Positions 12,405 through 29,342 of a stretch of DNA of 39,931 nucleotides are shown one piece after another (position 1 is the first letter of the stretch; every line of letters begins with the position of its first letter). Source of the DNA: Waterburya agarophytonicola KI4. GTDB lineage: Bacteria > Cyanobacteriota > Cyanobacteriia > Cyanobacteriales > Xenococcaceae. The stretch covers positions 1 to 39,931 of the forward strand of contig NZ_JADWDC010000046.1 of NCBI RefSeq assembly GCF_020640915.1, written 5' to 3'. A model generated the notes under the pieces. It did not search any database. It worked only from the letters and a program-made list of their open reading frames with translations, and was not told the origin of the DNA. Position numbers and translations under genes: made by a program.

Positions 12405-12436
12405 CTAAATTTTCGCTTTATATTTGAAGATCCTTT

Positions 12437-12461
12437 AAGTGGAGTTATCGGTACTTCACTT
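12437..12461 (+). promoter_or_regulatory. Dyad upstream of the YqcI/YcgG-like gene
   Basis: The arms AAGTGGAGT and ACTTCACTT match at 8 of 9 positions around a 7-bp centre, about 60 bp before the start codon at 12524. A TATACA hexamer (about 12480-12485) that could be a -10 box follows. This is a candidate operator and promoter for the plus-strand pair 12524-14685. Confidence 0.35.
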
Positions 12462-12523
12462 TTAGAGAATAAGTTTGGCTATACAATTCTGATAGTTTCA
12501 CACAAAATAATATAGTAATTTCA

Positions 12524-13231
12524 ATGATGAATAACAAATTTGATTCGTGTATTCAAAATAATTCTATGGCATCAGAATATGGATTAACAGCATTATCCGT
12601 TCAAAATTTTGAACCTATACGAAGTGGAACCGATTGTCTTTATGCTATGACCTCACGTTTATGGGGTTCTCCTCCTTATGACGAAGCAAAGAGCTTTGAA
12701 GAGAATATGGAGCAAATAATGGAAGATATGTGTAATTTTCTTGATGTTGCTAGGGAACAACGACTGGATGGATATGTTTTAGAACTTCCTGGTTCTGGCT
12801 TTGGAGAGAATCTTGGGACGTTAGCATACTCTCTACACCGTATATTGTATTGCTTAAGTGAACACGATCCAGTGGGCGAGCATTGTCTAAATCAACCCGT
12901 CGAAGATTTAGCTTGGTCGTTTGCCTTTGGAGGAGACAAAATTTTTGTTAATACTTTTGCACCTTTCTATCCAGAAGGACATAGTCGTTACGGTTTTGGT
13001 TCGTCTTCTACATGGATAATGTTTCAGCCACGTCATTCCTTCGGTCGAGTAGCTAAAATAGGTGAAACAGCTTTGCCTCCTCATATTCGCTTACGTATTC
13101 GAGAAGACCACGCATCTCACAATCGTGCTTACGATCCTAAATTAAGTGCTATACCTTATGAGGCATATCGGTGTATTCGTCCTTTATGCTTAGGTGACTC
13201 CGAAGTGCGCTGGTGGGAAACAACTCTTTGA
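12524..13231 (+). CDS. YqcI/YcgG-family protein, candidate heme-type N-hydroxylase
   Basis: This 235-aa protein has the family pattern: LAYSLHRILYCLSEHDP in the middle, then LAWSFAFGGDKIFVNTFAPF, HSRYGF and IMFQPRHSF (about residues 127-175). YqcI/YcgG proteins are widespread and mostly uncharacterised. As I recall, the GntA enzyme of the guanitoxin pathway, reported as a heme-dependent N-hydroxylase, belongs to or near this family, which makes an N-oxidising role in this cluster possible. It starts with two ATG codons in a row. The LamG gene follows after 32 bp on the same strand. The function is inferred; the family call is by motif reading. Confidence 0.65.
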   Translation: MMNNKFDSCIQNNSMASEYGLTALSVQNFEPIRSGTDCLYAMTSRLWGSPPYDEAKSFEENMEQIMEDMCNFLDVAREQRLDGYVLELPGSGFGENLGTLAYSLHRILYCLSEHDPVGEHCLNQPVEDLAWSFAFGGDKIFVNTFAPFYPEGHSRYGFGSSSTWIMFQPRHSFGRVAKIGETALPPHIRLRIREDHASHNRAYDPKLSAIPYEAYRCIRPLCLGDSEVRWWETTL

Positions 13232-13263
13232 TTTCTTAGAACAATACTCAATCAATTCTAATA

Positions 13264-14685
13264 ATGGAAAAGCACGAAGATTGTAATTCCGAAGATTTGC
13301 TCAACCATGATTCATTCATGATCCTTACTAGTCAATTAGCATCTGCAAGAATTTCACCGACGAAGCTCAAAGCTCTTGTTTTAAAGTCAGGATTTACCAT
13401 TGAAAGCTGGATCAAACCCAATGGAGGCATTAATAGTCTTGATATTTTTGGTTGTGCATCCAGTAGGGGGAGGTATCAGCTTTCTCTAGATGCTATTGGC
13501 AGCGTTTTTTTTGATGGACGTAAGCCTCGTAAATGGATGATGGTAGAAAATTTTGTTGATTTTCCTGTTACAGAGTTAACTTTAGAATTTTTGATATGCC
13601 CGTTTCGAGGGAATTCCCAGACAACATTAGTTTCTTATGTTACTGATCGCTCTGATGCTAATTGTGAATTTGCTGTCAAAGAAGATGGATGTCATGGTCT
13701 GACAATTACGATTGGCGATCAACATCTAGCATCAGGCATCAACATGGATTATTCTCAATGGCAGCGTATAGCAATAACTTGGGAGTCTAAAACTGGGCAA
13801 ATAGAAATTTATAAAGATGATGGTTCAAAGGTAATTGCTGTAGAGGGAAAGAACGACGGGACAATAGTTCCTTTTGGTTCTCCAGTATTTGTTGGGACAC
13901 TTGCTCCTAATACCCAGCTTGCTAGTGGAGGTTTTCTTGTATTTGGTCAAGGGCAAACACGACCTGGTGATGTTCTAGGATTTCCGATGCCAGAGGGATT
14001 TGTCGGAGGATTTAGTGAGGTGAGATTGTGGCGATGTATACTTAACCAAACTACGTTAAATACTCTTAAAGGGTGTTGGCTTACTGGAGATGAGCCAGGA
14101 CTAGTAGGTTGCTGGCGTTTTACTGGTCTAGCTTTGAGTACTGGCGAGTGTCGTAATATTTGCCAAACTGGTAACGATGGAGTGTTAGGAGGTTTTCGCT
14201 CTGATTTAGGGGTAAAAGATATTTTAGGATATCGAGTATTGGGCGTGGCTGGGCAGTTAGCATATTTATCTACAGCAGTAGTCCCAGCAGGTAAATGGTG
14301 TCATTTAACAATGGTTGTACCTGAAGGATCTCTCAATACAGCTAATCCACAGTTATTTATTAATAGTCAGCAAGTAATTACCAGCCAGGTAGATAGTCAA
14401 GATATTTCTCTACTGGAGATTGGTCAAGGTGGAATTGGTTCTTGTGGGGATAGTGAATTGGATGCCTTAAAATTATGGAATATACCTCTTTCTGAAACGG
14501 CTTTAAAGCATAATTATCTGCATCATTACCCCTTAGATGCTAAAGGTTTATTTGCTCTTTATGATGGGGCAGGCATTAAAGGGGAAAAAATATACAATAG
14601 GCTAAGTCAAGATTTAGACTTAGTAATTAAAGGTTCTTTAAAAGCCATACCATCAACTAGCCCAATTGCTAAGAGTCAAACTTAA
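13264..14685 (+). CDS. LamG / concanavalin A-like repeat protein
   Basis: This 473-aa protein is built of two or three LamG-type jelly-roll units. Recurring cues are FTIESWIKP (about residue 36), GGFSEVRLW after residue 245, and LDALKLWNIPLSE near 400, with WQRIAITWES and KWCHLTMVVP as the internal strands. LamG domains bind glycans or other ligands. There is no signal peptide, so it appears cytoplasmic, which is unusual for this fold. Its stop overlaps, tail to tail, the stop of the oxygenase gene. It could be a scaffold or a binding partner for the product; no catalytic motif is visible. Confidence 0.7.
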   Translation: MEKHEDCNSEDLLNHDSFMILTSQLASARISPTKLKALVLKSGFTIESWIKPNGGINSLDIFGCASSRGRYQLSLDAIGSVFFDGRKPRKWMMVENFVDFPVTELTLEFLICPFRGNSQTTLVSYVTDRSDANCEFAVKEDGCHGLTITIGDQHLASGINMDYSQWQRIAITWESKTGQIEIYKDDGSKVIAVEGKNDGTIVPFGSPVFVGTLAPNTQLASGGFLVFGQGQTRPGDVLGFPMPEGFVGGFSEVRLWRCILNQTTLNTLKGCWLTGDEPGLVGCWRFTGLALSTGECRNICQTGNDGVLGGFRSDLGVKDILGYRVLGVAGQLAYLSTAVVPAGKWCHLTMVVPEGSLNTANPQLFINSQQVITSQVDSQDISLLEIGQGGIGSCGDSELDALKLWNIPLSETALKHNYLHHYPLDAKGLFALYDGAGIKGEKIYNRLSQDLDLVIKGSLKAIPSTSPIAKSQT

Positions 14686-15299
14686 GTTATGGGATATCCT
14701 TTTATGTCAAAACTAATCGAAATTCGTTTCTGTTCTCCTAAGTTTGGATCAACATTATGAGGAAGCCAAGATGGAAACAAGAGCAATCGACCTGGTAAAG
14801 GCTCAAAGGGAACTATAAAATTACTAAAAGAAGTGTCTTTGGCAAAACGAGGGCGTAGCATCCTAACATCAGCACGAGGATCGTGAAAATTTAAATTTCC
14901 TGAATTCGGAGATGTTTGTAAATAGTAGACACCACTAAATAAAGAATCAGGATGACGATGTAAATGATTATGAGCAAATTGAGAATTAAGAATACACCAC
15001 ATGGTTTTGATGCGATACTTTTCAGTCTTGAGATCTAACTGTAAATCTTGGGCTATTACATTCTCAATGAATTCTTCTATTTGCTTTTGCAAAGGGGTAA
15101 AAGCTGGCTCATTATGTAACTGATCGGGACTGTGCCATCCTAGTACATTGGAACGTTTTAATCCTGGGTCGTTTTTATACAATTGAATTATGTATTCAAG
15201 CATCGCTTGATTATGAACCGAAAAATTTTCCAGTTGAGATGCCCAGACTGGGGTAGGAAAAAGTTCATATCGTTTAAGCTGGTTCTCATCGCTACTCAT
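14682..15299 (-). CDS. 2-oxoglutarate/Fe(II)-dependent oxygenase (2OG-FeII_Oxy_5 type)
   Basis: This 205-aa protein should hydroxylate a substrate carbon using 2-oxoglutarate, oxygen and iron. It opens with the family's FPTPVW motif. The middle region HNHLHRHPDSLFSGVYYLQT is characteristic of PF13759/TIGR02466. PNSGNLNFHDPR follows, then the distal PHNVDP with the second iron histidine, and RISISFDI with the 2OG-binding Arg. The start overlaps the upstream NRPS stop by four bases (ATGA), so it is translationally coupled as the last gene of the NRPS operon. Likely substrates are an amino acid or a carrier-bound peptide; a hydroxyl made here could be the site used by the carbamoyltransferase. 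Confidence 0.82.
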   Translation of the reverse strand: MSSDENQLKRYELFPTPVWASQLENFSVHNQAMLEYIIQLYKNDPGLKRSNVLGWHSPDQLHNEPAFTPLQKQIEEFIENVIAQDLQLDLKTEKYRIKTMWCILNSQFAHNHLHRHPDSLFSGVYYLQTSPNSGNLNFHDPRADVRMLRPRFAKDTSFSNFIVPFEPLPGRLLLFPSWLPHNVDPNLGEQKRISISFDIKGYPIT

Positions 15300-18200
15300 T
15301 TTTCAAACATTGCCTCAAAACTAATACTAATTGTTTCATGAATAAGAGCAGCATTTGCAGAAACGTTAGGTCGTTCGAGTAGATTATCGTGATGACCATT
15401 CCCCAGGATTTTTTGGAAACTATGGCGACTTGCTTCTTGCCAGTTTTGCATATTACTAGCGTTGAAATTATTTTCAGTAGTAGTAATTAATGTAATAGGA
15501 GCAGCAATAGTACCGCTGTCCTGACCATTACTATAAACTCTAGCAAAGGTACGAATACGTTCTTCCCAGCGTTGCCGTCCTTCCGATTCAGGATATAGTT
15601 CGTCAAAACGAGGATTGTCTAAATAATGAGTCACTATTTGCTCAATATAAACTTCACTATAGGCTGGGGATAAAGTGCGCCAGATACTATCTAAAATTAA
15701 TAAATGGGCTACTTTAGTTTTTTCTGCTTCTAGATATTGAGCGACACTAAAAGCTAGACTAGCCCCAGCAGAGTAACCAATTAGGGCAAAAGGTCGATCT
15801 TCTGCAATAGACTTAATTGCCCTAGCATATTGTTGAATTCGGTCTTCTGTCAATAAAAAATCAAATGCATACACACTATAGCTGGATGACAACTCTTGAG
15901 CTAAGTCTAAAAAGCTCCAGGTACTCGTACTAATAGGGGGAAAACAGAATAACAGTGGATACCCTTTATGATTGAGCAAATGAAGATTTTTTGCTGAAAA
16001 TTTTTGTTGTAAGGTATATTCTGCTTCAATTACCTTAGCTTGGGCGGCGATAGTTTGAGCTTCATAAACCTGGCTAACCGAAAATGAAATATCAAAATAT
16101 TGAGAGATTTTACTTGCTAGTACTGCTGTTTTAAGACTATGACCCCCCGCATCAAAAAAGTTATCATCAATGCCAATATTGGAGTTAGATAGAACTTCAT
16201 GCCAAATGCGAAGAAGAATTTGTTCCGTCTTTGTCCTGGGTTTTTGGGTTAATTTATCAGTATTGCTAGCAATATTTTCGATCTGTTTAGGATTAGGTAA
16301 TTGACGTTTATCTATTTTGCCATTGAGATTGCGGGGTAAATTTCCTATCTGATATATTTTCGCTGGCACCATTGCGGTGGGGAGTTCTACTGTCAACCAT
16401 TCATGTAAAAGCTTTACTGAAAGTTCTTTCACTGTACTGAGAGGAGTAACATAGCCGATTAGTTCCAGATGTTCTTCCCCATCCTGAAAAGGAAGAATCA
16501 CCGCTTCTCTTACTCCTGGATAGGTTCTCATTCGTTGTTCAATCTCTTCTAATTCAATACGTACACCACGAATCTTTAACTGATTATCGCAGCGACCACT
16601 ATAAACGATAGATCCATCTGTCCTACGGTAGGCTAAATCACCAGTGCGATACATCAGTTTACCTGAGAAAAAAGGATCTGGGATAAAAGCTTGAGCAGTT
16701 TTTTCTGGATTACCCAAATATTCTATTCCCAAACCTTCCCCCGCTAGATATAGCTCGCCAATTGCTCCTAAAACTTGTGGATTTAAGCGGTCGTTTAATA
16801 TATATGCTCGAATGTTAGGTAACGGTTTGCCAATGGGAGGAAACGAATCCAATTGCCAATCTTCCTTTTTTATCTGATGGCATAGGGCAATATCAGTACA
16901 TTCAGTAGGACCATAAATATTTACTAACTCGGCACGGCAGTTAGTATGAGTTAACCAAAGGCGCAATCTTGTCATAATTGGAGGTTCTCCCCCTAAAGCT
17001 AATAATTTTAGGCTTTGAAGCTCGCTATACTTATTTGCGCGAGCTAACTCTAACACTGGATAAAACATACTAGGAACACCAGGGTTAAGAATATTAATCT
17101 GATGGTGTGAGATCGCTTGCAGTAATGCTTGAGGATCGAAGGGTTTGTTTTGGAAAAGGATTAATTTTCCTCCAAATAATAGTGGTGCTAAATAATTTTT
17201 AATCGAAGCATCAAAATTTGAGGAAATAACTTGTATTAAATTAGTATCAGAATTGATATTCCCTAAATCCTGATACCAATAGAGTAAATTAATTAAAGAT
17301 CTAGTTTTGACTTTTACTCCTTTAGGACGTCCTGTAGATCCAGAGGTAAAAATAATATAAGCTGGAGCATCAGGATGACTACCTTTGGGAGATGGTAGCT
17401 TATCCAAAGTTTCCAGAAATCGCTGGTCAACTTGCATCTTCAATGGCTTAACATTCGATGTCAAATTATTTGCCGATTGTGCTGTGTGTAGCAAAACATC
17501 ATAGCTGTAACGACCAAGAGTAGAAGTTTCAGGTAGATGTAGTGGGGTGATATCAACTTGCTGAATACGAGCTTGATGAGCTTGCCAATCTCGCCAAAAA
17601 TCACAATGTACGAATAAACTATCTTCTACGGCTTCACTACCTACCGTATTGATAAAAACTTTACGCTGTGATGGATTCCAAATATGCGAGCAAAAAATTA
17701 TACCGCCATTGTTTAGTTGAGCTAGACTAGCTGTTAAAATTTGACGGAGATAGTTAAGACCAGGAAAACTTTGGACGACGCTTGCTATTACAATCACGTC
17801 AAATTGGGTAAAGTCCAAACTTTCTAACTCGTGAGCAGCAAGTTGCAAAAGATGGACATTAGTTAGTCGATTTTTCTCTGCCAACTTTTGAGACCAAGTT
17901 AATGCACTAGATGCCAAATCAATACCAACATATTCACCTACTTGTGGTGCAAGGCGACGCATTGTTAAGCCCGAGCCACAACCTATATCTAGTAAACGTA
18001 TATTGGAGTTGAGATATGGTTTTAACTTGTACTCTATGTTATCGAGATATTCGCCTATTTCTACCTCTGTTAAAACTAGTCCTCCCAGACCATGACGCCA
18101 ACCGCTAGCTTCAATAGCAGTCGTAGCAGTCGTAGCAGTATAGTCCCAAACTTCTGGACTCATACGGGGTGATTCTGCTTCTGCTTCCGCCATAATATTA

Positions 18201-18706
18201 TGGCTATCCAAGCATAAGATTGTCTTTACTGACGAACACTCATATTGCAGACTATTAAGACGACCAATGTAGTTGCTTATACCTATCAATAAACGACATG
18301 AAGTTTGGTCAATCATATCCCGCAAACGACTGTCAGGCAAATCTGTATTCAAGGGCAGATAAACTGCTCCAGCTTTAAGAGTGCCTAGTAAGGTTACAAC
18401 TAGCCAAAAATCACACCCGAAGAAGGCACCAACACAATCACCTTGTTTTAGTCCATTGAATTGGATAAAGCGAGCAATGCGATCGGAGTATAAATCTAGT
18501 TCGGCATAGGTTATGTTCCTGTCTCGATCTACAATGGCGATCGCTTGAGAATTTTTTTGAACTTGGTGTCGAAATAATTCACCAATATTTGCCGTAGCTG
18601 GGAAACTTTTGGTTGTGTCATTGTAACGGTATATTAAGGTAGATATAGAATCTGCATCATCTCCCCGCCCTAAGTCCCCCAGTTGAATATCACCAATCTT
18701 CATCAT
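15296..18706 (-). CDS. NRPS: A domain with embedded methyltransferase, T, TE (terminating module)
   Basis: This 1136-aa enzyme activates, methylates and releases the second unit. The A domain begins at about 40 (A2 motif LKAGAVYLPL, 110-119) and is interrupted at about 185-410 by a SAM methyltransferase (LDIGCGSG, 239-246). It resumes at A3 (FTSGSTGRPKG, 453-463) and ends with A10 (NGKIDK, K797). The carrier Ser is S857 in GGHSL. The thioesterase has GYSAG (S979) and GHHDN near its end. Hand alignment to PheA reads the pocket as D-A-K-N-A-G-I-D-I-K; I recognise no substrate, although Lys at position 239 also occurs in a Glu code. There is no C domain here; condensation is supplied by the partner's C-terminal domain. 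The start overlaps the partner's stop by ATGA. Confidence 0.92.
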   Translation of the reverse strand: MMKIGDIQLGDLGRGDDADSISTLIYRYNDTTKSFPATANIGELFRHQVQKNSQAIAIVDRDRNITYAELDLYSDRIARFIQFNGLKQGDCVGAFFGCDFWLVVTLLGTLKAGAVYLPLNTDLPDSRLRDMIDQTSCRLLIGISNYIGRLNSLQYECSSVKTILCLDSHNIMAEAEAESPRMSPEVWDYTATTATTAIEASGWRHGLGGLVLTEVEIGEYLDNIEYKLKPYLNSNIRLLDIGCGSGLTMRRLAPQVGEYVGIDLASSALTWSQKLAEKNRLTNVHLLQLAAHELESLDFTQFDVIVIASVVQSFPGLNYLRQILTASLAQLNNGGIIFCSHIWNPSQRKVFINTVGSEAVEDSLFVHCDFWRDWQAHQARIQQVDITPLHLPETSTLGRYSYDVLLHTAQSANNLTSNVKPLKMQVDQRFLETLDKLPSPKGSHPDAPAYIIFTSGSTGRPKGVKVKTRSLINLLYWYQDLGNINSDTNLIQVISSNFDASIKNYLAPLLFGGKLILFQNKPFDPQALLQAISHHQINILNPGVPSMFYPVLELARANKYSELQSLKLLALGGEPPIMTRLRLWLTHTNCRAELVNIYGPTECTDIALCHQIKKEDWQLDSFPPIGKPLPNIRAYILNDRLNPQVLGAIGELYLAGEGLGIEYLGNPEKTAQAFIPDPFFSGKLMYRTGDLAYRRTDGSIVYSGRCDNQLKIRGVRIELEEIEQRMRTYPGVREAVILPFQDGEEHLELIGYVTPLSTVKELSVKLLHEWLTVELPTAMVPAKIYQIGNLPRNLNGKIDKRQLPNPKQIENIASNTDKLTQKPRTKTEQILLRIWHEVLSNSNIGIDDNFFDAGGHSLKTAVLASKISQYFDISFSVSQVYEAQTIAAQAKVIEAEYTLQQKFSAKNLHLLNHKGYPLLFCFPPISTSTWSFLDLAQELSSSYSVYAFDFLLTEDRIQQYARAIKSIAEDRPFALIGYSAGASLAFSVAQYLEAEKTKVAHLLILDSIWRTLSPAYSEVYIEQIVTHYLDNPRFDELYPESEGRQRWEERIRTFARVYSNGQDSGTIAAPITLITTTENNFNASNMQNWQEASRHSFQKILGNGHHDNLLERPNVSANAALIHETISISFEAMFEK

Positions 18707-21700
18707 TGTTTCTCTTGAAGTACTACATGATTAGCCAATTGTTCGAGCATATTTAATAACCGATGACAGGTTTGCGACCGCAAGCAACTAGTACGATATT
18801 CCAAACTTAATAGTAAATTTTCATCCCGTTGATTCACGAATAATGTTAGATCGAATTTTGCCGTATCAAAAAATATTTGCTCTAATTGCCTTGAATCGAG
18901 CAGCGAATCTGTTTGGTTAGTTGGCATTACTTCCTCAAAACTTTGAAAAGCAAATAATACGTTGAATAGTGGCTGGCGGTCAGGACGCCGAGATGGGTTT
19001 AGTTGGCGAATTATTTCATCCAAAGGAGCTGCTTGATGATTTAGTGCTTCAGCAGTAATTTGAGCAATCGTACCAGCCAATAGGGCGAAGGTCATTGAGT
19101 CGGTAATTTGAACCCGAATCGGTAAGATGTTCACCATTAAACCTACGAGACGTTCTAATTGTGGGTGAGTACGTCCAGCAGCCCCCATACCTACACAAAT
19201 ATCAAACTGTTTTGTAAGTTTGAACAGTAATAGCAAAAACAGCGACAAAATTAGACTGGCTAATGTTATGCCATAATTTTGAGCCAGCTCCTCTAAATCT
19301 TTTACTAAGGATGCAGAAATTATTCGCTGAACGGTGCTACCGTGAAACTGTTTCGTCTCGTCTTCAGAATCAATTGGAAGAGTAAGTTCTGGCGGTACAT
19401 TAGCTAATTGTTTTAACCAGTATGCAATAGATGGTTCATAATTTTGCTTAGTATGCCAGACTGCATAGTCTTTGTATTGTAGTAATACAGGCGGTAGTTT
19501 GGGATAAGAACCATCACATAATTGTTTATAAGCCTGATTAATTTCATCAAACAATATCATCAAAGACCAACCATCTATTACCAAGTGATGAAAGGTAAGT
19601 AACAACCTCCATGTATTACCAGGCAATTTCAGAACGACCAATCTCAACAATGGTGGTGCTTCAAGCTGAAAAGTTATGTTAGCTTCGCAAGTTGTTAAAG
19701 TTTCTGCTTGGATAATTGCATCAGATGCTCCAGTTAAGTCATGTACTGTAGGAAAAATGGAAATTTCTTCTGGAGATAATATAAATTGTTTTGGTTCGCC
19801 ATCAACTGTCATAAATCCAGTACGCAAAGCTTCATGACGATGAACTATTAACGTCAGAGCTTCTGCTAATCTAAGGATATCTACACTGGAGACATCCCAA
19901 ACTAAAGGCACGTTATAGGCTTTAGAACCAGCTTCCATTTGACAGAGAAGCCACAGGCGTTTTTGGGCATGAGATAAAGGATAATCGGGTCGATCTTCAA
20001 CTTGCGGAATTAGGTTTAAGGGGGTAGTTTTTTTCTCTTGGATCAAAACTGCGATCTCTCGAACACATCGCCGATTGTAAATATCTGCAATTGAAAGATT
20101 GATACTCAAATGTTTGTGAATGCGACCAGTAATCTGGGCCGCTTTGAGGCTATGACCGCCAAGCAAGAAAAAGTCATCAGTAATACTTTGGACCTGTGTT
20201 CCTAATACTTCTTGCCAAATCTCTAAGACAATTGATTCAATTTTATTAGTTGGAGGAACAATCTTAGTTGTAGACTGCTGCTCTAAAATCATTGTTTCCA
20301 AGACTTTGAGGTCAATCTTTCCATTTTGATTATGTGGTAAGCGATCGAGTACTCGGATTTGGTTGGGTATCATGTAATCTGGCAAACGCTCAGTTAAAAA
20401 AGTGCGTGCCATCTTACTATCTACTTCATCGTCTGTAGCAATGAAAGCAACTAAAGCAGTATCCATTTTGTTTTTCTGCGCGATGACTGCTGCCTCTTTT
20501 ACTCCTGTTAAATGTAATAAAGTTGCACTTATTTCCCCAAGTTCAACGCGATAACCACGAATCTTGATCTGCTCATCAGAACGACCAACAAATAAGAGCC
20601 ATCCCTCTGGTGAGATATACCCTAAATCACCAGTGCGATAAACACGTTCGTTTGGATACAAGGGATCGGCAAGAAAACTTCTTTTGGTAAGTTCAGGTTG
20701 ATTCAGATAACCTTTCGCTAGACCAGCTCCAGCGACGTAAATATCCCCTATCGTATTTGGTAGAACGGGTTCTTGCTTTTCATTTAAAACATAGACACGT
20801 GTATTAGGTAAAGGATAGCCAATGGGAACTTTTCCCTCAACTGAAGTAAATTTTGAGGTAATGGGAAAATAAGTACTATCCGTACAATTTTCTGCGGGGC
20901 CATACATATTAGTTACAGTTAAATGGCTGCTAGCTTTATGGGCATACAAACGTTCTATTAAAGCAGGATGAACGGCTTCGCCACCTGTAACAATATGTTT
21001 GAGGGATGGTGGTGGATCTTCAGCTAAACCGCGATCAATAAGTGCCAGTAAAAAAGGCGTAACTACATTGATAATCTCAATATCGTGGTCGCGTATATAT
21101 TTGAGAAAAAGAGCAGGATCGCTGCGGATAATATCGTTGACAATATGAATTTCATTACCAGTAATCAGACAAGAAAGACATTGTTGAATAGCTGCATCAA
21201 AGATGAAGGAAGCTGATAATAATTCACGTACTTGGTTTCCCAATGGCTTATATAAAATTTGCTCTAAAGCGTAAATAAGATTGGTAACAGCATGTCGCTG
21301 AATCGATACACCTTTAGGCTCTCCTGTAGAACCAGAAGTATAAACTATATATGCCAGTTCATTGGGATCTATATTTGATGTTAGTGATAAGTCATCAACT
21401 TTTTGCTGTGTAAGTCTAACAATATCAACAATTATTGATGCTGATTTTGGAACCTGAAATTTTGTTTCGTTAGTCACCAGCAACAGTTTAACCTCACTAT
21501 CTTGGAGCATATAACTCAGCCGTGCTTCTGGTGCTGTCGGATCGAAAACAACAAAAGCTCCTCCAGCCTTTAAGATAGCTGCCATCGCTAACGGTATCCA
21601 TTGACTACGGGGTAAAAATAAACCTATAACAACACCAGGTTTAACTCCATAATGAGTTTGCAATATAGAAGAAATATGTCGAACAGACGAGGCTATTTCA

Positions 21701-21864
21701 GCAAAATTTAATTTGACTTGCCCAGCAATTATTCCATATTGATTTGGTGTAGTGTTGGCACGAGAAATGATTTCAGTTTCAAGTCCATTTAAAGATATAG
21801 TCAGAGGCGAGCCGATTAGGATAGAACGCTTTGAATGATTTTCCTCGATTTCAACGTTTGACAT
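18703..21864 (-). CDS. NRPS: A-T-C (loading module plus condensation domain)
   Basis: I chose the ATG at 21864 (MSNVEIEENH), which overlaps the carbamoyltransferase stop by 14 bp; longer frames run deeper into that gene. The 1053-aa protein contains an A domain at about 25-525 (A3 VYTSGSTGEPKG at 174-185, A10 NGKIDLK near 514-520), a carrier domain with Ser572 in GGHSL, and a condensation domain from about 628 (C1 SHAQKRLWLL, catalytic HHLVIDG at 759-765, later GRTHPQLERLVGLMVN). The pocket read by hand alignment to PheA is D-A-Q-N-V-G-M-T-D-K, which I cannot assign. Ending in C and lacking a starter C domain, it loads residue one and joins it to residue two carried by the next protein. No docking domain was recognised. 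Confidence 0.92.
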   Translation of the reverse strand: MSNVEIEENHSKRSILIGSPLTISLNGLETEIISRANTTPNQYGIIAGQVKLNFAEIASSVRHISSILQTHYGVKPGVVIGLFLPRSQWIPLAMAAILKAGGAFVVFDPTAPEARLSYMLQDSEVKLLLVTNETKFQVPKSASIIVDIVRLTQQKVDDLSLTSNIDPNELAYIVYTSGSTGEPKGVSIQRHAVTNLIYALEQILYKPLGNQVRELLSASFIFDAAIQQCLSCLITGNEIHIVNDIIRSDPALFLKYIRDHDIEIINVVTPFLLALIDRGLAEDPPPSLKHIVTGGEAVHPALIERLYAHKASSHLTVTNMYGPAENCTDSTYFPITSKFTSVEGKVPIGYPLPNTRVYVLNEKQEPVLPNTIGDIYVAGAGLAKGYLNQPELTKRSFLADPLYPNERVYRTGDLGYISPEGWLLFVGRSDEQIKIRGYRVELGEISATLLHLTGVKEAAVIAQKNKMDTALVAFIATDDEVDSKMARTFLTERLPDYMIPNQIRVLDRLPHNQNGKIDLKVLETMILEQQSTTKIVPPTNKIESIVLEIWQEVLGTQVQSITDDFFLLGGHSLKAAQITGRIHKHLSINLSIADIYNRRCVREIAVLIQEKKTTPLNLIPQVEDRPDYPLSHAQKRLWLLCQMEAGSKAYNVPLVWDVSSVDILRLAEALTLIVHRHEALRTGFMTVDGEPKQFILSPEEISIFPTVHDLTGASDAIIQAETLTTCEANITFQLEAPPLLRLVVLKLPGNTWRLLLTFHHLVIDGWSLMILFDEINQAYKQLCDGSYPKLPPVLLQYKDYAVWHTKQNYEPSIAYWLKQLANVPPELTLPIDSEDETKQFHGSTVQRIISASLVKDLEELAQNYGITLASLILSLFLLLLFKLTKQFDICVGMGAAGRTHPQLERLVGLMVNILPIRVQITDSMTFALLAGTIAQITAEALNHQAAPLDEIIRQLNPSRRPDRQPLFNVLFAFQSFEEVMPTNQTDSLLDSRQLEQIFFDTAKFDLTLFVNQRDENLLLSLEYRTSCLRSQTCHRLLNMLEQLANHVVLQEKQ

Positions 21865-23425
21865 AACAATTATTTTTAGTAACGAAGCCATCAAGTTGAT
21901 GAGTTTTACAATATTCCTTGAGATCGCTAGTACGATTGATGAAACCGCGCCCATTAAAATTCAAAGAAGTATTGCACATAACGCCGTAGCCAGTAAGTTC
22001 TTTAAAAGCACGAAGTAAACAGTATAAATTGGGATTTTGTTGCTCATTTACTGTCTGAGTGCGTGTACTACCATCCACATGAGTAATAGCTTTAAGAGCC
22101 TCCGTTTTTACCCTATGAAAAAAGAGCATATAGGGACTAGGAGTATGACAGTCAAAATATAAAGAAGCATCTTCTTCTAAGCAAATAGGAGCAATAGGAC
22201 GATAGTTTTCGCGTTGCTTAATCGCGTTCAAACGATTTTGAGTTTCTTGAGTGAAAGGAGCAGCTAATATTGAACGATTGCCCAAAGCTCGTGGTCCAAT
22301 CTCACAGAGACCTTGAGCCCAACCAATGATCCCACCATCTCGAATAAATGCGGCTATCCAACTATAGTCCAGGGGTATAACTTTAAAGTCATCATCCTCC
22401 TTACCATCATCATCATCAATGAATTTTTGACCTGCATAAACATTCCATTCAATCTTTGCGTTACCAGTAAAATGATGTTGTGCGTCGATTGCAGTACCAA
22501 TTCCTGACCCTGTGTCGTTTGTACAGGGTGGTACAAAAACTTCCTTAAATAAACCACTATTTTCCCACTTGGTATTCCATTCACAATTTAATCCACAACC
22601 TCCAGCTATGATCAGTGGATAATTTTTAGTTAAATGTTCACGAGCAAAAAGGTGAAACCGCTCAAAAATAGCATCTGAATATTTTCCTGCAAGCTGCTTG
22701 AAAGCATTATTGGTAACGCCAATATTATAGAATGGTGAATCTTGAAAATCTTCTTTTTGCGTAGACAGTAAGATACCATCACGAGCTAACAAATAATCAA
22801 TCACTTTCTTTTCTTCAGAAGTTGGCAGCGATCGATCTGAAAAAGCTGCTAAAGCCATTAATTTACCAGGATCGCTGAAGCGAAAGTGACTTTTAATTGG
22901 TGGAAAAGTAGGATCTGCTATTCTAAACAAAAAAGCATACTTGTTACCAGGGTCGGTGAGTACACGTCCCAAATGAGTTATATTTACATTTTCATCGATT
23001 AAATAAAAATCCCCCAAGTTTCCTTCCCATACTAAACAGTAGACAGGTTGTCCTTGAGGAAAGGGGGATAGACCGTAAGCACAATATATATGCGATCGCT
23101 CATGAGTGGAAGTATATAGATGTATCGACTTGCCAAAAAATTTTTGAGTAGTACAGTCTGCTTTCTGAAGCCCATAATATCCAGCATGAGAAGCTTTTTC
23201 TACAGAATGCCAACCCTTGACCCAACCACCGATTGCAACGATATCAGGCAGATCGTTGAGTAGTGTAGCAGCCTCTACTATTGTTGTTGGTGTAATAGAT
23301 TCGTAACGAGGAAAAGAATCTTTCTCTGCCTCAAGTGAGAACAATAAACTACCATTTTTAATTGCAGTAATTTGTCCGTCATGACCTGGTTTTAGTGCCA
23401 ATATAGAGCACAAAGGTTGACTCAT
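21851..23425 (-). CDS. O-carbamoyltransferase (NodU/CmcH/TobZ family)
   Basis: This 524-aa enzyme should transfer carbamoyl from carbamoyl phosphate to a hydroxyl through carbamoyl-adenylate. The N-terminal Kae1-like half has KPGHDG (H15) and HERSH (H108, H112, the metal-binding pair). AGGCGLNCEWN and NDTGSGIG follow near 275-310. The YrdC-like C-terminal half has GPRALGNRSIL and RENYRPIAP. The acidic stretch FIDDDDGKEDDDF (about 335-347) is an odd insertion. It is the first gene of the minus-strand operon and shares a divergent promoter region with the ATP-grasp gene. Carbamoylation of the NRPS product, or of a hydroxyl made by the co-encoded oxygenase, is the natural reading. SxtI of saxitoxin belongs to the same family, but no other saxitoxin gene is present. 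Confidence 0.9.
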   Translation of the reverse strand: MSQPLCSILALKPGHDGQITAIKNGSLLFSLEAEKDSFPRYESITPTTIVEAATLLNDLPDIVAIGGWVKGWHSVEKASHAGYYGLQKADCTTQKFFGKSIHLYTSTHERSHIYCAYGLSPFPQGQPVYCLVWEGNLGDFYLIDENVNITHLGRVLTDPGNKYAFLFRIADPTFPPIKSHFRFSDPGKLMALAAFSDRSLPTSEEKKVIDYLLARDGILLSTQKEDFQDSPFYNIGVTNNAFKQLAGKYSDAIFERFHLFAREHLTKNYPLIIAGGCGLNCEWNTKWENSGLFKEVFVPPCTNDTGSGIGTAIDAQHHFTGNAKIEWNVYAGQKFIDDDDGKEDDDFKVIPLDYSWIAAFIRDGGIIGWAQGLCEIGPRALGNRSILAAPFTQETQNRLNAIKQRENYRPIAPICLEEDASLYFDCHTPSPYMLFFHRVKTEALKAITHVDGSTRTQTVNEQQNPNLYCLLRAFKELTGYGVMCNTSLNFNGRGFINRTSDLKEYCKTHQLDGFVTKNNCYVKR

Positions 23426-23570
23426 AAAAAAATGTAAAAGTATATATGTTTTATTCTATGGGAATACGTATCCGTTTAATATAGGATAATTAAACTATTT
23501 CATACAATTGTTTAATTCAGCATTCTCATATTTATAAAACTTCATTAATTTAAAGTTTGGGATGAAATAA
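23426..23570. promoter_or_regulatory. Divergent promoter region of the NRPS operon and ATP-grasp gene
   Basis: This 145-bp AT-rich intergenic region separates the start codons at 23425 (minus) and 23571 (plus). It holds an inverted repeat AATTAAAC (23488-23495) with GTTTAATT (23510-23517) across 14 bp, and a near-palindrome GGAATACGTATCC at 23461-23473. Either could be the operator of a regulator not encoded nearby. The TATATA-like words next to the minus-strand start are consistent with a -10 box. Confidence 0.45.
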
Positions 23571-24536
23571 ATGGTACAGGAAAAAATACAATTACAAATG
23601 CTTAAGGACATAACAAATAAGTATGGTATTGAGATACATTTATTTAAAGATAATCCCATCATCCATTTGCAAAAAGGTAACTATCAGAAATTTATACATG
23701 GTTTTCAGTTTGAATTAAATTCTGATTCAGTGTCAACTATTTGCAAAGACAAAGGTGCAATTTCAATCATTCTCGATTTTCATCAAATTCCTCATGTAGA
23801 GCATCGAACTTTTTCTCTGTCTTCTCAAAAAACTTCGATTAATGAGAGTCTATGGACATCAATACAAAATTTTGCTCAAAAGTATAATTTTGATGTTGTT
23901 TGTAAACCTAATAATGGTTTTTCTGGACAAGACGTATATCATGCTCACTCTCAAAGAGAACTAGAGAAAACCGTACATAAGTTACTTTCTATTTATAGTG
24001 AATTTTGTATTTCTCCTTTTTATAAGGCCGAATTTGAATATCGTGTAATTGTAATAAACGATCGACCAGAATTAATTTGGTGTAAAGAATGCCTTGCTCT
24101 AGTTGGTGATGGTCATTCTAGATTGAAAACATTATTTTCAAACTATATATCATTATTAGACACTCAGAAGATCGCTAAACTTTTTAAGGATTTTGACCAT
24201 TCTATTTTGACATCTGATCGAGTTCTAGCTTATGGAGAAAAGTTTAACTTGAAATGGAAACATAATGAGGCTCTAGGTTCCACAGTAAGTCTACATAATA
24301 ATATTGACCAAGATAAGAAAGATAAGATTAGCAATCTTGCATTGCTAACAGCGCGTAAACTTAACCTTTTTTTTGCTTCAATTGATATTTTGGACTGTAA
24401 TGATGAATTTAAAGTCCTAGAAGCACATACGGCTGTTACTATGGGTCCTGTGATTAGAAATTGTGGTGAAGAAGGATATCAAAAAACTAAAGAAGTTTAT
24501 GATAAAGTCGTCCGCTATATGTTTGATATAGATTAA
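23571..24536 (+). CDS. ATP-grasp ligase
   Basis: This 321-aa protein shows the ATP-grasp plan: FDVVCKPNNGFSGQDVY (about 105-121) as the ATP-binding lysine and glycine-rich loop, SEFCISPFYKAEFEYRVIVI (about 143-162) as the strand with the conserved Arg, and LFFASIDILDC...FKVLEAH near 265-285 with metal-binding Asp and Glu. ATP-grasp enzymes activate a carboxylate as acyl phosphate and join it to an amine or similar. The closest general resemblance is to RimK and cyanophycin synthetase-type grasp domains. Transcribed divergently from the NRPS operon, it may add an amino acid to, or amidate, the product or a precursor. The substrate is unknown. Confidence 0.75.
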   Translation: MVQEKIQLQMLKDITNKYGIEIHLFKDNPIIHLQKGNYQKFIHGFQFELNSDSVSTICKDKGAISIILDFHQIPHVEHRTFSLSSQKTSINESLWTSIQNFAQKYNFDVVCKPNNGFSGQDVYHAHSQRELEKTVHKLLSIYSEFCISPFYKAEFEYRVIVINDRPELIWCKECLALVGDGHSRLKTLFSNYISLLDTQKIAKLFKDFDHSILTSDRVLAYGEKFNLKWKHNEALGSTVSLHNNIDQDKKDKISNLALLTARKLNLFFASIDILDCNDEFKVLEAHTAVTMGPVIRNCGEEGYQKTKEVYDKVVRYMFDID

Positions 24537-24628
24537 GAGTCAAGTACTTTCCTAATCAATCACAGCAGTAATATTTTATCAATATTTTATTTGATGTCTT
24601 TATTCTCAAGCTCATAAGTTAAGATGTC

Positions 24629-24649
24629 AGATTGGAATGACTCCAATCT
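24629..24649. terminator. Hairpin between convergent ATP-grasp and formyltransferase genes
   Basis: A perfect 8-bp stem AGATTGGA / TCCAATCT with an ATGAC loop lies between two stop codons that face each other. It is a plausible bidirectional terminator, although no clear T-run follows on either strand. Confidence 0.5.
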
Positions 24650-24725
24650 AATGATTTCATTTGATTATCTTGTTTGTTTTTAAGACAGGTTTGATGCAAA
24701 AAATAACCATCATTTAAGACTATCC

Positions 24726-25541
24726 TTAGTCCTTAAGCGTAATAATGGGAAGCTTCTTTGTTCTCGATGGATTCTTTAAAATAGTTTTAATAACACCATT
24801 TTTATCAATAAATTCAGTTTGCTTCACTAAATATTTTCCAAATTGCTTCTTAATATTTAGATAACCCAGAGATAAATCTTGTTTAGCGAAGTTTATTTGA
24901 TGACCACACTCAATTCGATTGATTATTTTAGTTACAAGTTCAGTACCAAAATAAGTTAATTTCATATTAATAGAATGAATAGTATCATCAGGTTGAGCAT
25001 CAATTCTCGCTTGAGCAACAATATCGCCACCATCAATTTCAGATGCTAATTTATGGATAGTAACACCTATATTGTAAATATCCCAATTTAGTAATGCCCA
25101 CTCAGTACATGCGGCACCTCGGTAATAAGGGCTTAGTCCCCAATGCAGATTTAATCCTAAATTTACATTATTAATAATTTCAGGCTTCACAATTGAAGTG
25201 CCATGCACTAATAGTAAATCAGGGTGAGTTTCTCTGATTTTTTGACAGACTGTAGGAGAATTGACACTCTTAACTACCATAATTGGAATATCCTTATTGA
25301 GGTTTTTCCAACTATTAGAAAAAAGCTGATCGTATAAATTAGATTTCCATGTTTTTAATAAGAATCTATCTAATAGTGTCCTGGCTGCACCGAATAATCC
25401 TTTGAATTTGATTAAGCCGATTAAAAATTGTGATGAGGATGGCTTTTCGATAACAACAAGGTCTACTTTATGAGTTTCATTGATTTTGTTAACAAAATAA
25501 ACTGTTACTGGCTGTTTTCTGATAAAACAAACAATGCTCAT
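24726..25541 (-). CDS. Formyltransferase (Fmt/ArnA-type, N10-formyl-THF dependent)
   Basis: This 271-aa protein carries the formyl-transfer catalytic triad: N131 and H133 in LNLHWGLSPYYRG, and D170 in EIDGGDI. The N-terminus (MSIVCFIRKQPVTVYFVNKI) fits the Rossmann start of the family. It lacks the usual C-terminal tRNA-binding domain of methionyl-tRNA formyltransferase, so a small-molecule amine or hydroxylamine substrate is likelier. Its start codon sits exactly at the junction with a truncated IS1634-like transposase, so its native upstream region has been lost and any promoter must lie in transposon DNA. Formylation of an N-hydroxylated amine would make a metal-binding formyl-hydroxamate; that is speculation. 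Confidence 0.82.
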   Translation of the reverse strand: MSIVCFIRKQPVTVYFVNKINETHKVDLVVIEKPSSSQFLIGLIKFKGLFGAARTLLDRFLLKTWKSNLYDQLFSNSWKNLNKDIPIMVVKSVNSPTVCQKIRETHPDLLLVHGTSIVKPEIINNVNLGLNLHWGLSPYYRGAACTEWALLNWDIYNIGVTIHKLASEIDGGDIVAQARIDAQPDDTIHSINMKLTYFGTELVTKIINRIECGHQINFAKQDLSLGYLNIKKQFGKYLVKQTEFIDKNGVIKTILKNPSRTKKLPIITLKD

Positions 25542-26801
25542 TTAGATTCTACTTCGTTCCATGTAGATGGGAAATATGAATCCACAGCAAAAGACCCTGA
25601 ACTGGGGGTGATTGAAGTTACTTACGGATATTCGAGAGACCATCGACCAGATTTGAGGCAGTTTGTGATGAATTTGATATGTGTTGGCGATGGAGATATC
25701 CCAGTGCTGATGGAAATAGCCTCAGGAAACCAATCAGATAAAGCAAGATTTGCTGGGTTGCTGGGTGACTTTAAACAACAATGGACATTTGAAGGACTGT
25801 GCATAGCAGATGGCGCACTGTATAGCGTAGACAATATAAATGCTATGAACAATTTACAGTGGCTCACGAGAGTCCCCCTGAGTATCAAAGAAGCATCAAC
25901 CTTGGTAAATAATGAAGTTGAACTAAAACCAAGTACTGTTAAAGGCTATAAGCTAGAAGAATCAAGCAGCGAGTATGGGGGAGTGTCACAACGTTGGCTA
26001 CTGATTGAAAGTAAACAAAGACGGAAATCGGACTTGACACGACTGGCAAAAAAGATTGAGCAACACCAGCAAAAATCTCAACAGGCACTGAAGAAGTTAT
26101 CAGCCCAGGAATTTGCCTGTCCTAAAGGATACCGCTCCGCATATATTGCAGATGCTATCAGCGCGGCACAAAAATTATCGAAGAAATTAAACTGGCATGA
26201 ACTTTCAGATATTCAGACAGTTGAAAAACGCCACTATGGCAAAGCGGGTAAACCAAGTAAAGATGATGTACCAAATCGCATTAATTATCGAGTTACGGCG
26301 ATAGTTAACCCAATAGAAAGTGAAATATCAGCTCAAAATATCCGTTGCGGTCGATTCATTTTAGCGACCAATATTCTCGATTCAGAAAAGTTAAGTCCAG
26401 ATGAAGCTTTACGTGAATACAAAGCACAACAAGGTGTGGAGCGTGGGTTCCGTTTCCTGAAAGACCCTCTTTTCTTTGCGTCCAGTGTATTTCTCAAGTC
26501 ACCCAAACGCCTTGCTGCTTTGGGAATGATTATGTCTTTGAGTCTGTTGGTTTACAACTTAGGTCAGCGTCAACTGCGACAGGCTTTGGCTCAAAAGGCA
26601 CAAACAATTCCTAATCAATTAGGAAAACCAACTGCTACTCCTACACTTCGCTGGGTGTTTCAATGTTTCATAGCAGTTCATCTAGTCGTTTTCCAAGGTG
26701 TTCAAGAAGTTGTGAATTTAACAGATGAGCGACAGCATATCTTAAAGTTTTTCAGCAAGACTTGTCGCCGCTATTATCTTCTCCCTGAGCCAGATTCTTA
26801 A
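25539..26801 (+). pseudogene. IS1634-like transposase, 5' truncated
   Basis: Recognisable transposase begins at HLDSTSFHVDGKYES and runs to the natural C-terminus. The catalytic acidic residues are visible: D in HLDST, D in CIADGALYS, and E in YKAQQGVERGFRFLKDP. About the first 100 or more residues of an IS1634 transposase are missing. The open frame continues upstream to 25470 only because it reads through the complement of the formyltransferase 5' end. No intact element end is seen on the left, and the right side is abutted by the IS5-like element one base after the stop. Confidence 0.82.
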
Positions 26802-27974
26802 TTAGGGCTTACTGAAAAAGTCTGAGTGAAACAGAAAAGAAAGTGGAATTAAAAAGAGTAAGCGAAAAAATCGGCAGTATTAGAGAGTTTAGCCATAATA
26901 CGTCCTAAGCTGAAGCGACGCTTTGCCTGACCAAACTTACCTTCAATCGCATTTCGGAATCTTTCATCTTCTCGTTGTTGCTTAATCATGCCTGGTTGTG
27001 GGTTAAGAGGAGGTCTTCCCAAAGCAGGGGCACTGATTCTGATGTTCCGTTCTTTACAGAATGCTCTGTTAGCCCTTGTACGATAAATTCGGTCGACATG
27101 AACCGATTCAGGATAGCAACCAAATCTTTGCCGATATTGCTCTATTTGTGATTGAAAGTCCCCTGATTCATTAAAATTATCCCAACTGAGGCGATCGAGA
27201 AAACAACAACCATCAACATAACTGACAGAAAGTTTTGCTCCGAATTCAACAGGAGTGCCAGCTTTACCTCGTACAATAGGACGTATATGAGGTTGAGTCA
27301 GACTAACTATTCGGTCATCAATGCGACGCGAACGGCTGCTGTACATAGATTGCTGTTGCCTGAATAGTTCATTAATAATTAACAACATACGATAACTGTG
27401 TCCCTTGAGTTGGGATAAGTTTGCGCCTTCGCTGATGAGAGTATCGATGTGGCATAAATTCCGCCGTAGATAAGCTAACTGTTTGCGTAATGCTTTTCGA
27501 CGTTTTTTATGACGAGGGCGACGCTGCTTGGTAATTTCTAAATAGTCTTTTCTCGCTTTTTGGCGGTAAGTTCTGGGTTTCCTCTCAAATTTATCTTCAA
27601 CTTGTTCGTATAATCTATCCAATATTTTCTCTGTGTGTTCTCTAGCTTGATTCAACAGTTTAATATCGGTAGGATAACTGATATCTGCGGGAGTACAAGT
27701 AGCATCGAGAATCAATTTTCCTTGATTTTTAACAGATGACGGCTCACTTTCTTTTGATAGTTTTACCCATCGATTCTCTTGAGATAATCTGCCTCCAAAT
27801 GGCAGCTCAAAGTTTTCTACTTTTTTCTGAACCTCGTTTGTATTTCTGTACATTTCAACTGACAGGTGCAAGGTTTTTTAGTGATTATCTCAATTTTCCT
27901 TGGATTTGAATAGTCCCCAACCACCTTCAACTTTATTTATTGCAATCGTTCCCAACCTTTTCAGTTAACCCTAA
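26802..27974 (-). mobile_element. Internally deleted IS5-family-like element
   Basis: The ends are imperfect inverted repeats matching at 17 of 20 positions: TTAGGGCTTACTGAAAAAGT at the left (26802-26821) and TTAGGGTTAACTGAAAAGGT reading in from the right (27974-27955). The element is about 1.17 kb, shorter than a full copy, because the transposase has lost an internal part. Flanks read ...TTAA on the left and TTAT... on the right; I cannot fix the target duplication. Confidence 0.75.
26849..27853 (-). pseudogene. IS5-family transposase, internally deleted and 3' truncated
   Basis: I chose the ATG at 27853 (MYRNTNEVQKK), the usual family start. The N-terminal 37 residues (to RWVKLSKE) join directly to SEPSSVKNQGKLILDATCTP, which in full-length relatives lies much further on, so an in-frame deletion of roughly 100-130 residues has removed the intervening helix-turn-helix part. 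LILDATCTPADISYPTD is the first catalytic block, and the later REDERFRNAIEGKFGQAKRR holds the catalytic Glu region. The C-terminus ends early at ADFFAYSF. It should be inactive but could be mobilised in trans through its ends. Confidence 0.75.
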
Positions 27975-28090
27975 TTATTTTATGACGATGCTAACAGCGG
28001 AATGTGGGTTTGAACTAGGCAGAGGAATTTTGTTGAAATAAGTAGTAAATCCGAAACCCAAAGCGGATAAATAAATTGAGTAACTTTTAT

Positions 28091-28703: not shown

Positions 28704-29342
28704 ATGCAACATAGCAATAAAGAACAAGACATAATCTTATCTTTACGTTTACGGGGTGAAACACTATTAGAACAGATTAAAAATGAAAGATCTGAAGTGA
28801 GTACTTGGCGAAATTGGCTCTATCTATATGAATTTACTAAAGTTGAAGACGATCCTTATATATGGTTGTCCTGTATTTTGGCATTACAAGCTGTATCTTT
28901 AGGAAATTATGGTGTAGGTGCGGTCATTACTGATGTACAAGGTCGAGTAGTTGCTGAGGGACAAAACAAATTACTGAAGCCTTACTTACGTACAGATCGT
29001 CATGCTGAAATGATGGCTCTTGATATATTTGAGGATAGTCTTCCTAATCTCAAGCAAGTTACTGACTTCAGTCTCTATACTTCTTTAGAATGTTGTCCCA
29101 TGTGTACGGTACGTCTAATTAACACAGGTATACGTAGGGTATTATTTGCTGCCGAAGATCCTGAATGTGGAATGGTAAGTCAATGGAACAAACTACCTCC
29201 TTTTTGGCAGCAAATGGCTAAACGCCGAGAACCACCCCAGTTTTTTGGTAGACCCTCATGTAATCCTGAACTAATTAATGCAGCAGGTAAAATTTTTGCT
29301 TTGACCGAGAGTGAGTTAAGCAATATTATTGCTCAACGCTAG
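28704..29342 (+). CDS. Cytidine/deoxycytidylate deaminase-fold zinc protein
   Basis: This 212-aa protein has the zinc deaminase signature: H100-A-E102 (RHAEMMAL) and C131-P-M-C134 (CCPMCTVRL). YGVGAVITDVQGRVVAEGQN precedes it as the core beta-strands. An N-terminal extension of about 50 residues and a C-terminal tail make it longer than simple tRNA adenosine or guanine deaminases. Substrate could be a free base, nucleotide or another amidine-type ring; the family reading alone cannot decide. Its 3' end overlaps the nucleotidyltransferase gene by 17 bp, tail to tail, suggesting old co-localisation. A good promoter lies upstream. Confidence 0.82.
   Translation: MQHSNKEQDIILSLRLRGETLLEQIKNERSEVSTWRNWLYLYEFTKVEDDPYIWLSCILALQAVSLGNYGVGAVITDVQGRVVAEGQNKLLKPYLRTDRHAEMMALDIFEDSLPNLKQVTDFSLYTSLECCPMCTVRLINTGIRRVLFAAEDPECGMVSQWNKLPPFWQQMAKRREPPQFFGRPSCNPELINAAGKIFALTESELSNIIAQR

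Follow-up and report, generated by a model that had tools for sequence, protein, structure and literature searches.

Gene content of the locus

The stretch of DNA analysed here (hereafter called the window) is the entire contig NZ_JADWDC010000046.1, 39931 bp, of the 149-contig, 5.1-Mb genome of the cyanobacterium Waterburya agarophytonicola KI4. It carries a nonribosomal peptide synthetase (NRPS) gene cluster with a core of five genes, which encode a radical S-adenosylmethionine (SAM) enzyme, a deaminase, an O-carbamoyltransferase, an NRPS protein with adenylation, thiolation, and condensation domains (A-T-C), and a second NRPS protein, in which the adenylation domain is interrupted by a methyltransferase and followed by thiolation and thioesterase domains (A(MT)-T-TE). 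We define the gene family by the joint presence of these five genes, which are found together in all five loci compared, namely the window and four actinobacterial loci. The window genes, with domains called by Pfam, are as follows.

12524..13231, + strand: YqcI/YcgG-family protein, candidate thiolate-heme N-oxygenase; accessory, three of five loci; PF08892 41 bits, cut-off 27
13264..14685, + strand: LamG/pentraxin-like protein; accessory; Laminin_G_3 48.4, Pentaxin 33.8
14682..15299, - strand: PF13759 / TIGR02466 2-oxoglutarate (2OG)-Fe(II) oxygenase; window only; PF13759 91.8
15296..18706, - strand: NRPS module 2, A(MT)-T-TE, 1136 aa; core; A code DAKNAGIDIK
18703..21954 (probable start 21864), - strand: NRPS module 1, A-T-C, 1083 aa; core; A code DAQNVGMTDK
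21851..23425, - strand: NodU/TobZ-type O-carbamoyltransferase, short 524-aa form; core; Carbam_trans N 81.9, C 187.1
23571..24536, + strand: ATP-grasp-like protein, cluster membership unproven; weak match, RimK 22.7 bits, cut-off 21
24726..25541, - strand: formyltransferase-like protein, membership unproven; Formyl_trans_N 59 bits; start at the edge of the transposase open reading frame (ORF)
25470..26801, + strand: transposase ORF (DDE_Tnp_1), N-terminal part probably lost; its start overlaps the opposite-strand formyltransferase gene
26799..27977, - strand: insertion sequence with 23-nt terminal inverted repeats, 87% complementary; transposase ORF 26849-27871, DDE_Tnp_1_2 86.3 bits
28704..29342, + strand: CDA-fold (TadA/guanine-deaminase-like) deaminase; core; PF00383 51.8 bits; HAE and CPMC motifs
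29326..30213, - strand: nucleotidyltransferase-like (NTase) protein; window only; GS-x-DxD motif as sole basis
30210..31187, - strand: radical SAM enzyme, distantly related to archaeosine RaSEA; core; CxxxCxxC motif; TIGR01210 107.5 bits

A preliminary description of this DNA had delimited the cluster as 12524-25541. Its eight genes lie at the positions and on the strands given there, and Pfam confirms their named domains, although only weakly for the ATP-grasp protein. The border itself is too short, since it misses the radical SAM and deaminase genes at 28704-31187. The overlaps of 14, 4, and 4 bp along the minus-strand run of carbamoyltransferase, A-T-C, A(MT)-T-TE, and oxygenase genes are correct as described, the first of them if the A-T-C protein begins with the ATG at position 21864; measured from 21954, the start of the longest ORF, it would be 104 bp. 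The oxygenase and formyltransferase proteins likewise carry the motifs that were checked. The NTase gene overlaps the radical SAM gene by 4 bp, and its product has no Pfam or NCBIfam match and no significant PDB match; self-protection is our guess at its role.

Conservation of the core in actinobacteria

A scan of genome contigs with the carbamoyltransferase yielded 16 pattern matches. Four loci among them were confirmed, and such a scan would miss relatives at a greater distance. The four loci belong to Frankia QA3, Parafrankia colletiae, Saccharopolyspora spinosa, and Actinokineospora auranticolor, and 12 window proteins were compared with them by tblastn. The radical SAM enzyme is the most conserved protein, with 61-63% identity to the four relatives, as compared to 56-57% for the carbamoyltransferase, 42-46% for the deaminase, 35-37% for the A-T-C protein, and 36-38% for the A(MT)-T-TE protein. 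In the actinobacteria, the genes lie on one strand in the order radical SAM, deaminase, carbamoyltransferase, A-T-C, and A(MT)-T-TE, with the YqcI and LamG-like genes, where present, preceding the carbamoyltransferase gene. The last three core genes form one overlapping run in both the window and Frankia, where each overlap is 4 bp. It had been set beforehand that relatives should keep the cluster genes together, and these three were indeed found together in four of four actinobacterial loci.

The YqcI and LamG-like proteins have counterparts in S. spinosa and Actinokineospora (49% and 30-31% identity, respectively), and the LamG-like gene follows the YqcI gene in all three loci with YqcI. Both genes belong to the cluster as accessory genes, present in three of the five loci. 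Neither Frankiaceae strain has YqcI anywhere in its genome, and the LamG-like protein has no match in either Frankiaceae locus, the Parafrankia contig being just 13.2 kb long.

Do the radical SAM and deaminase genes truly belong to the cluster? In the window, both are cut off from the operon by the transposase ORF and the insertion sequence and lie on mixed strands, as would be expected if they were accidental neighbours of a cluster consisting of the carbamoyltransferase-NRPS operon plus local tailoring genes. However, in all four actinobacterial loci the two genes share the strand of the operon and lie no more than 5 kb upstream of it, with the YqcI and LamG-like genes between them and the operon in two loci, and the best-conserved protein of the set is the radical SAM enzyme itself. 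We thus consider an accidental association very unlikely.

The PF13759 oxygenase, ATP-grasp, formyltransferase, and NTase proteins gave no significant match in the four relative loci, and the four whole relative genomes contain one weak ATP-grasp match, away from the cluster. The first three, which had been described as defining parts, can thus not be retained as such. The S. spinosa cluster holds another oxygenase, of the DIOX_N/2OG-FeII_Oxy type. In addition, a cobalamin radical SAM protein is encoded after the operon in S. spinosa and Actinokineospora, and that of S. spinosa exceeds the cut-off of the KedN5 C-methyltransferase family (959.9 versus 700 bits).

The gene set is rare. Strong matches to the radical SAM enzyme, defined as at least 60% identity by tblastn or a profile E value below 1e-190, were found in 1 of 396 actinobacterial genomes (plus two weak matches), 2 of 180 genomes of the S. 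spinosa family, 2 of 35 of the Frankia QA3 family, and 2 of 229 of the S. spinosa order (the last scan at E 1e-10 or better); the samples overlap and include the centre genomes. All strong matches are confined to the same four actinobacterial genomes, and none at this strength occurs without the operon. Among phage contigs, 90 pattern matches to the radical SAM enzyme were obtained and none was confirmed, and the plasmids searched at E 1e-5 contained neither a YqcI nor a radical SAM match. One genome of the S. spinosa family sample (G950, loci L049 and L052), with a 31%-identical radical SAM protein, was weighed as a possible additional member but discarded, since no other tested window protein matches there. 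At 7927-12775 of L052, from an actinobacterium, this relative is encoded near two ORFs that, judged by eye, are a short uncharacterised one and one resembling a sulfotransferase gene.

The two NRPS modules and their substrate pockets

According to Pfam, the A-T-C protein comprises an A domain (65-417), a T domain (576-635), and a C domain (657-1078). In the A(MT)-T-TE protein, the AMP-binding domain is split around the methyltransferase (233-343), and is followed by a carrier domain (830-891) and a thioesterase (919-1111). The a2-like motif LKAGAVYLPL is located at 110, the methyltransferase motif DIGCG at 240, and the a3 motif TSGSTG at 454, with the AMP-binding domain resuming at 426, which confirms that the methyltransferase interrupts the A domain between a2 and a3. 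All six domains of the two-module assembly (A-T-C plus A-T-TE) carry their catalytic motifs; these include HHxxxDG in the C domain, GGHSL in both carriers, and GYSAG and GxHxxLL in the thioesterase, while the embedded methyltransferase has DIGCGSG. Since the domain order is A-T-C / A(MT)-T-TE, the cluster probably makes a two-residue product.

Next, we compared the A-domain codes, taken as ten pocket positions in the GrsA numbering. The code of the second A domain (A2), DAKNAGIDIK, is identical in all five loci, while the A2 core is 46-50% identical to that of the window. The code of the first A domain (A1) is DAQNVGMTDK in the window versus DAQNVGMVDK in the four other loci, with nine of the ten positions alike, and the A1 core is 41-43% identical. 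Because the pocket codes are kept while the A cores are only 41-50% identical, both substrates are probably the same in the window and the actinobacteria, and the core product is probably shared. The A1 code resembles the glutamine code, and the lysine at position 239 of A2 suggests an acidic or polar side chain; both readings are predictions rather than experimental assignments.

Carbamoyltransferase and YqcI protein

The carbamoyltransferase contains both Carbam_trans domains above their cut-offs, together with the catalytic motifs HxxxH, NDxG, GPRALG, and KxRExxRPxAP, and thus belongs to the O-carbamoyltransferase superfamily. The NodU equivalog cut-off is not reached (253.8 versus 1000 bits). 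Its named relatives NovN, GdmN, and TobZ act on a hydroxyl, and precedents for carbamoylated amino acids exist in GE81112 and in polyoxin (PolN).

As a marker of the cluster, the carbamoyltransferase was rejected: the 20 plasmid homologues listed, of 309 matching records, are 48-57% identical, yet the six neighbourhoods inspected contain no radical SAM enzyme, deaminase, or YqcI by tblastn, and therefore the carbamoyltransferase alone says little. Two of these neighbourhoods contain assembly-line genes, one with other NRPS genes (Streptomyces tendae) and one with a polyketide synthase with an A-domain match (L026). The former lies on a 408-kb plasmid of S. tendae 139, where an NRPS cluster includes the carbamoyltransferase, a capreomycidine synthase, a GntD-type hydroxylase, and P450s. 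On the Salmonella enterica plasmid NZ_CP030205.1 (13441-18993 of L024), a 57%-identical carbamoyltransferase is encoded beside thymidylate-synthase, ITPase, amidohydrolase, and MFS genes, a set that looks like a small nucleoside-type plasmid pathway. On plasmid1 of Planktothrix agardhii NIES-204 (1-21071 of L027), a 55%-identical carbamoyltransferase is accompanied by amidinotransferase, sterol-desaturase-like, sulfotransferase, and dioxygenase genes, a set reminiscent of cyanobacterial guanidine-alkaloid pathways.

The YqcI protein exceeds the curated cut-off of its family profile (PF08892, cut-off 27) in both the window (41 bits) and S. spinosa (41.3 bits), and Cys38 is invariant in all three sequences. 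The YqcI/YcgG family is described in PMC12866846 as thiolate-heme enzymes that hydroxylate guanidines.

Radical SAM enzyme and deaminase

How might the two remaining core enzymes act? The radical SAM enzyme matches RaSEA (TIGR01210) with 107.5 bits, half of the equivalog cut-off of 212.15, and the deaminase matches TadA with 46.6 bits, below the equivalog cut-off of 150. RaSEA converts the lysine adduct of preQ0 to archaeosine, according to PMC11298593. The pair might assemble an amino acid with an amidine or guanidine group, or its substrate might be a nucleobase-like ring.

In the latter case, the product might be a peptidyl nucleoside or contain a nucleobase-like ring, with a purine- or pyrimidine-like unit as the substrate of the deaminase and the radical SAM enzyme, and the hydroxymethyl or sugar hydroxyl of this unit as the site of carbamoylation. 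Consistently, the nearest named relatives of both enzymes (TadA or guanine deaminase, and RaSEA) act on nucleobases, and the related carbamoyltransferase of the Salmonella plasmid adjoins a thymidylate-synthase homologue. Miharamycin, moreover, is a nucleoside antibiotic. A YqcI member is cited in its context in PMC12866846. However, the window proteins scanned include no glycosyltransferase, nucleoside phosphorylase, or sugar enzyme, and the similarity of the two enzymes to the named families is remote. We regard a nucleoside-type product as unlikely, and prefer the reading in which the pair supplies an amino acid.

A plasmid-borne cluster and its probable spread

The two ends of the contig share exactly 55 bases. 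Assemblers leave such shared ends on circular molecules, and the contig thus most likely represents a plasmid closed into a circle of 39,876 bp. It encodes a Mob_Pre relaxase with Toprim domains, and on the basis of this gene we call it putatively mobilizable. It also encodes a CyRepA1-like replication protein, whose eight best matches (51-54% identical) are all on cyanobacterial plasmids, five of them annotated as members of the CyRepA1 family. One of the four C-domain places of the genome sits on the plasmid. No DNA nearly identical to 12001-27000 of the window was found among the plasmids searched. Adjoining the cluster, at 31438-32628, is a gene for a PhaA-like acetyl-CoA acetyltransferase (660.4 bits, below the cut-off of 740), which has no tblastn match in the four actinobacterial loci.

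Among 223 other genomes sampled from the phylum to which the window belongs, the radical SAM profile gave one weak match, and YqcI gave one weak match among 385. The best-scoring carbamoyltransferases in 149 relatives show 35-40% identity across a portion of the sequence and up to 49% in short segments, as compared to 56-57% over nearly the full length in the actinobacteria. For the embedded methyltransferase, the top matches by score among 385 other genomes show 31-35% identity, against 36-39% in the actinobacterial relatives and 35% in Tistrella; these values are nearly equal, and this domain is therefore a poor witness of history. The simplest reading of these distributions is a transfer between phyla. 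The horizontal spread suggested previously thus gains support, as four actinobacteria hold the core, while the radical SAM and YqcI proteins are all but absent from the rest of the genomes sampled in the phylum of the window. The cluster genes have a G+C content of 37-38%, close to the 39% of the remaining plasmid, and composition therefore gives no direction or date of transfer.

The window copy has been rearranged locally. The transposase ORF and the insertion sequence part the two halves of the cluster, so that the core genes are whole while their local order is disturbed; no full copy of the 25470..26801 transposase exists elsewhere in the same genome. Could the window then hold a decaying cluster, disturbed by insertion sequences, that no longer makes its full product? 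The probably shortened transposase ORF begins at the formyltransferase start, and the insertion sequence lies between the halves, both of which would fit such decay. The core ORFs, however, are as long as those of the relatives, and the motifs looked for are present. Decay therefore seems quite unlikely to us.

Proposed pathway

Established from the sequences are the gene content, order, overlaps, motifs, and conserved pockets. With moderate confidence, we propose that these genes form a biosynthetic gene cluster on a small circular plasmid, that this cluster represents an apparently undescribed family, and that it works in the following manner. The product would most likely be a dipeptide with a carbamoyl group and a methylated side chain and, in the clusters with YqcI, also an N-hydroxyl group.

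Precursor supply: The radical SAM enzyme and the deaminase would make or remodel a non-standard amino acid precursor.

Carbamoylation: The carbamoyltransferase is predicted to carbamoylate a hydroxyl. O-carbamoylserine and glutamine have similar shapes, and our preferred, although unproven, guess is therefore that a hydroxy amino acid is carbamoylated before loading, and thus looks like glutamine to A1.

Assembly: Module 1 would activate a residue with a glutamine-like side chain, and module 2 a second, polar or charged residue, the side chain of which would be methylated by the embedded methyltransferase. The C domain would then join both residues, and the thioesterase would release the two-residue product.

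Tailoring: The predicted YqcI heme protein, in its window, S. spinosa, and Actinokineospora versions, may add an N-hydroxyl, probably on a guanidine or amidine, and the LamG-like protein may have an assisting role. The PF13759 oxygenase, ATP-grasp, formyltransferase, and NTase proteins are presumably local additions or neighbours.

Several points weigh against this proposal. First, the reactions of the radical SAM enzyme and the deaminase are guesses, as neither protein comes near the cut-off of the named family closest to it. Second, the YqcI protein matches the AglA structure 9uba with an E value of 0.86, which is not significant, and the sole YqcI structure model has a mean pLDDT of 45.7, which is too poor, and was not used. 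Third, tblastn finds no radical SAM enzyme, deaminase, or YqcI in the six other carbamoyltransferase neighbourhoods. Moreover, none of the five A-domain stretches read by eye in the S. tendae NRPS cluster, which has a 56%-identical carbamoyltransferase, bears a glutamine-like code, and that cluster therefore gives carbamoylation before loading no support. Finally, the scan of window proteins revealed no exporter gene.

A bolder form of the proposal is that a RaSEA-like radical SAM enzyme and a TadA-like deaminase, from superfamilies for which tRNA base modification is the best-known role, were recruited to make a new amino acid, which a two-module NRPS joins to an O-carbamoylated glutamine mimic, with side-chain methylation and N-hydroxylation, and that the result is a new class of small antimetabolite-like dipeptides that has moved between actinobacteria and a plasmid of a cyanobacterium. 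We put this forward tentatively, as a rather unlikely possibility.

The open-licence literature searched describes no such pathway, although not all queries were aimed at the whole gene set, and the novelty is thus provisional; the statement in the preliminary description that the genes match no recognised pathway agrees with this. That description also holds in reading a plasmid-borne two-module NRPS with a carbamoyltransferase, an embedded methyltransferase, and tailoring enzymes. Overall, its NRPS reading stands and the spread is supported, while the border and the three supposedly defining tailoring genes do not.

The family would represent a compact and testable pathway with two central enzymes, in which the same substrate pockets are kept over a large evolutionary distance. 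As its holders are named strains, including S. spinosa NRRL 18395 and Frankia QA3, the product can be sought directly. If the radical SAM enzyme and the deaminase do act as a pair on an amino acid, their chemistry would be new.

Comparison with known systems

RaSEA is the closest named family to the radical SAM enzyme, with which it has CxxxCxxC in common. The window enzyme is instead encoded within an NRPS cluster, and neither an ArcS nor a TGT-type match was found among the window proteins scanned. The carbamoyltransferase shares both Pfam domains and the tested motifs with NodU, TobZ, GdmN, and NovN, while being shorter (524 aa). The YqcI protein belongs to the same Pfam family as AglA and the other YqcI/YcgG heme enzymes named in PMC12866846 (those of argolaphos, guanitoxin, the miharamycins, and the ambocidins, and DcsA), and has a conserved cysteine in the N-terminal region as they do; the AglA alignment does not reach Cys38 of the window protein, a candidate counterpart of the thiolate ligand Cys44 of AglA.

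The interrupted A domain also has precedents. PMC11355689, a review, gives a8/a9 as the usual insertion site in A domains, and describes TioN (thiocoraline) and MarQ (maremycin) as likewise carrying the methyltransferase between a2 and a3. Both are described there as S-methylating, TioN on cysteine, whereas the present domain has the code DAKNAGIDIK and lies in a module with its own T domain and thioesterase. The stand-alone protein WP_014747081.1 (1166 aa; 1-3501 of L060) of Tistrella mobilis pTM1 has the same A(MT)-T-TE order and insertion site, with 35% identity over the methyltransferase, and the annotation of the 14 kb examined to one side of its gene lists no carbamoyltransferase, radical SAM enzyme, or A-T-C protein. 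Its A code differs (DAIIVGAVGK as aligned, with 34% core identity), and therefore the architecture alone does not fix the pocket. Among these systems, the pathway provisionally takes its place as a new family within a known kind, the NRPS clusters.

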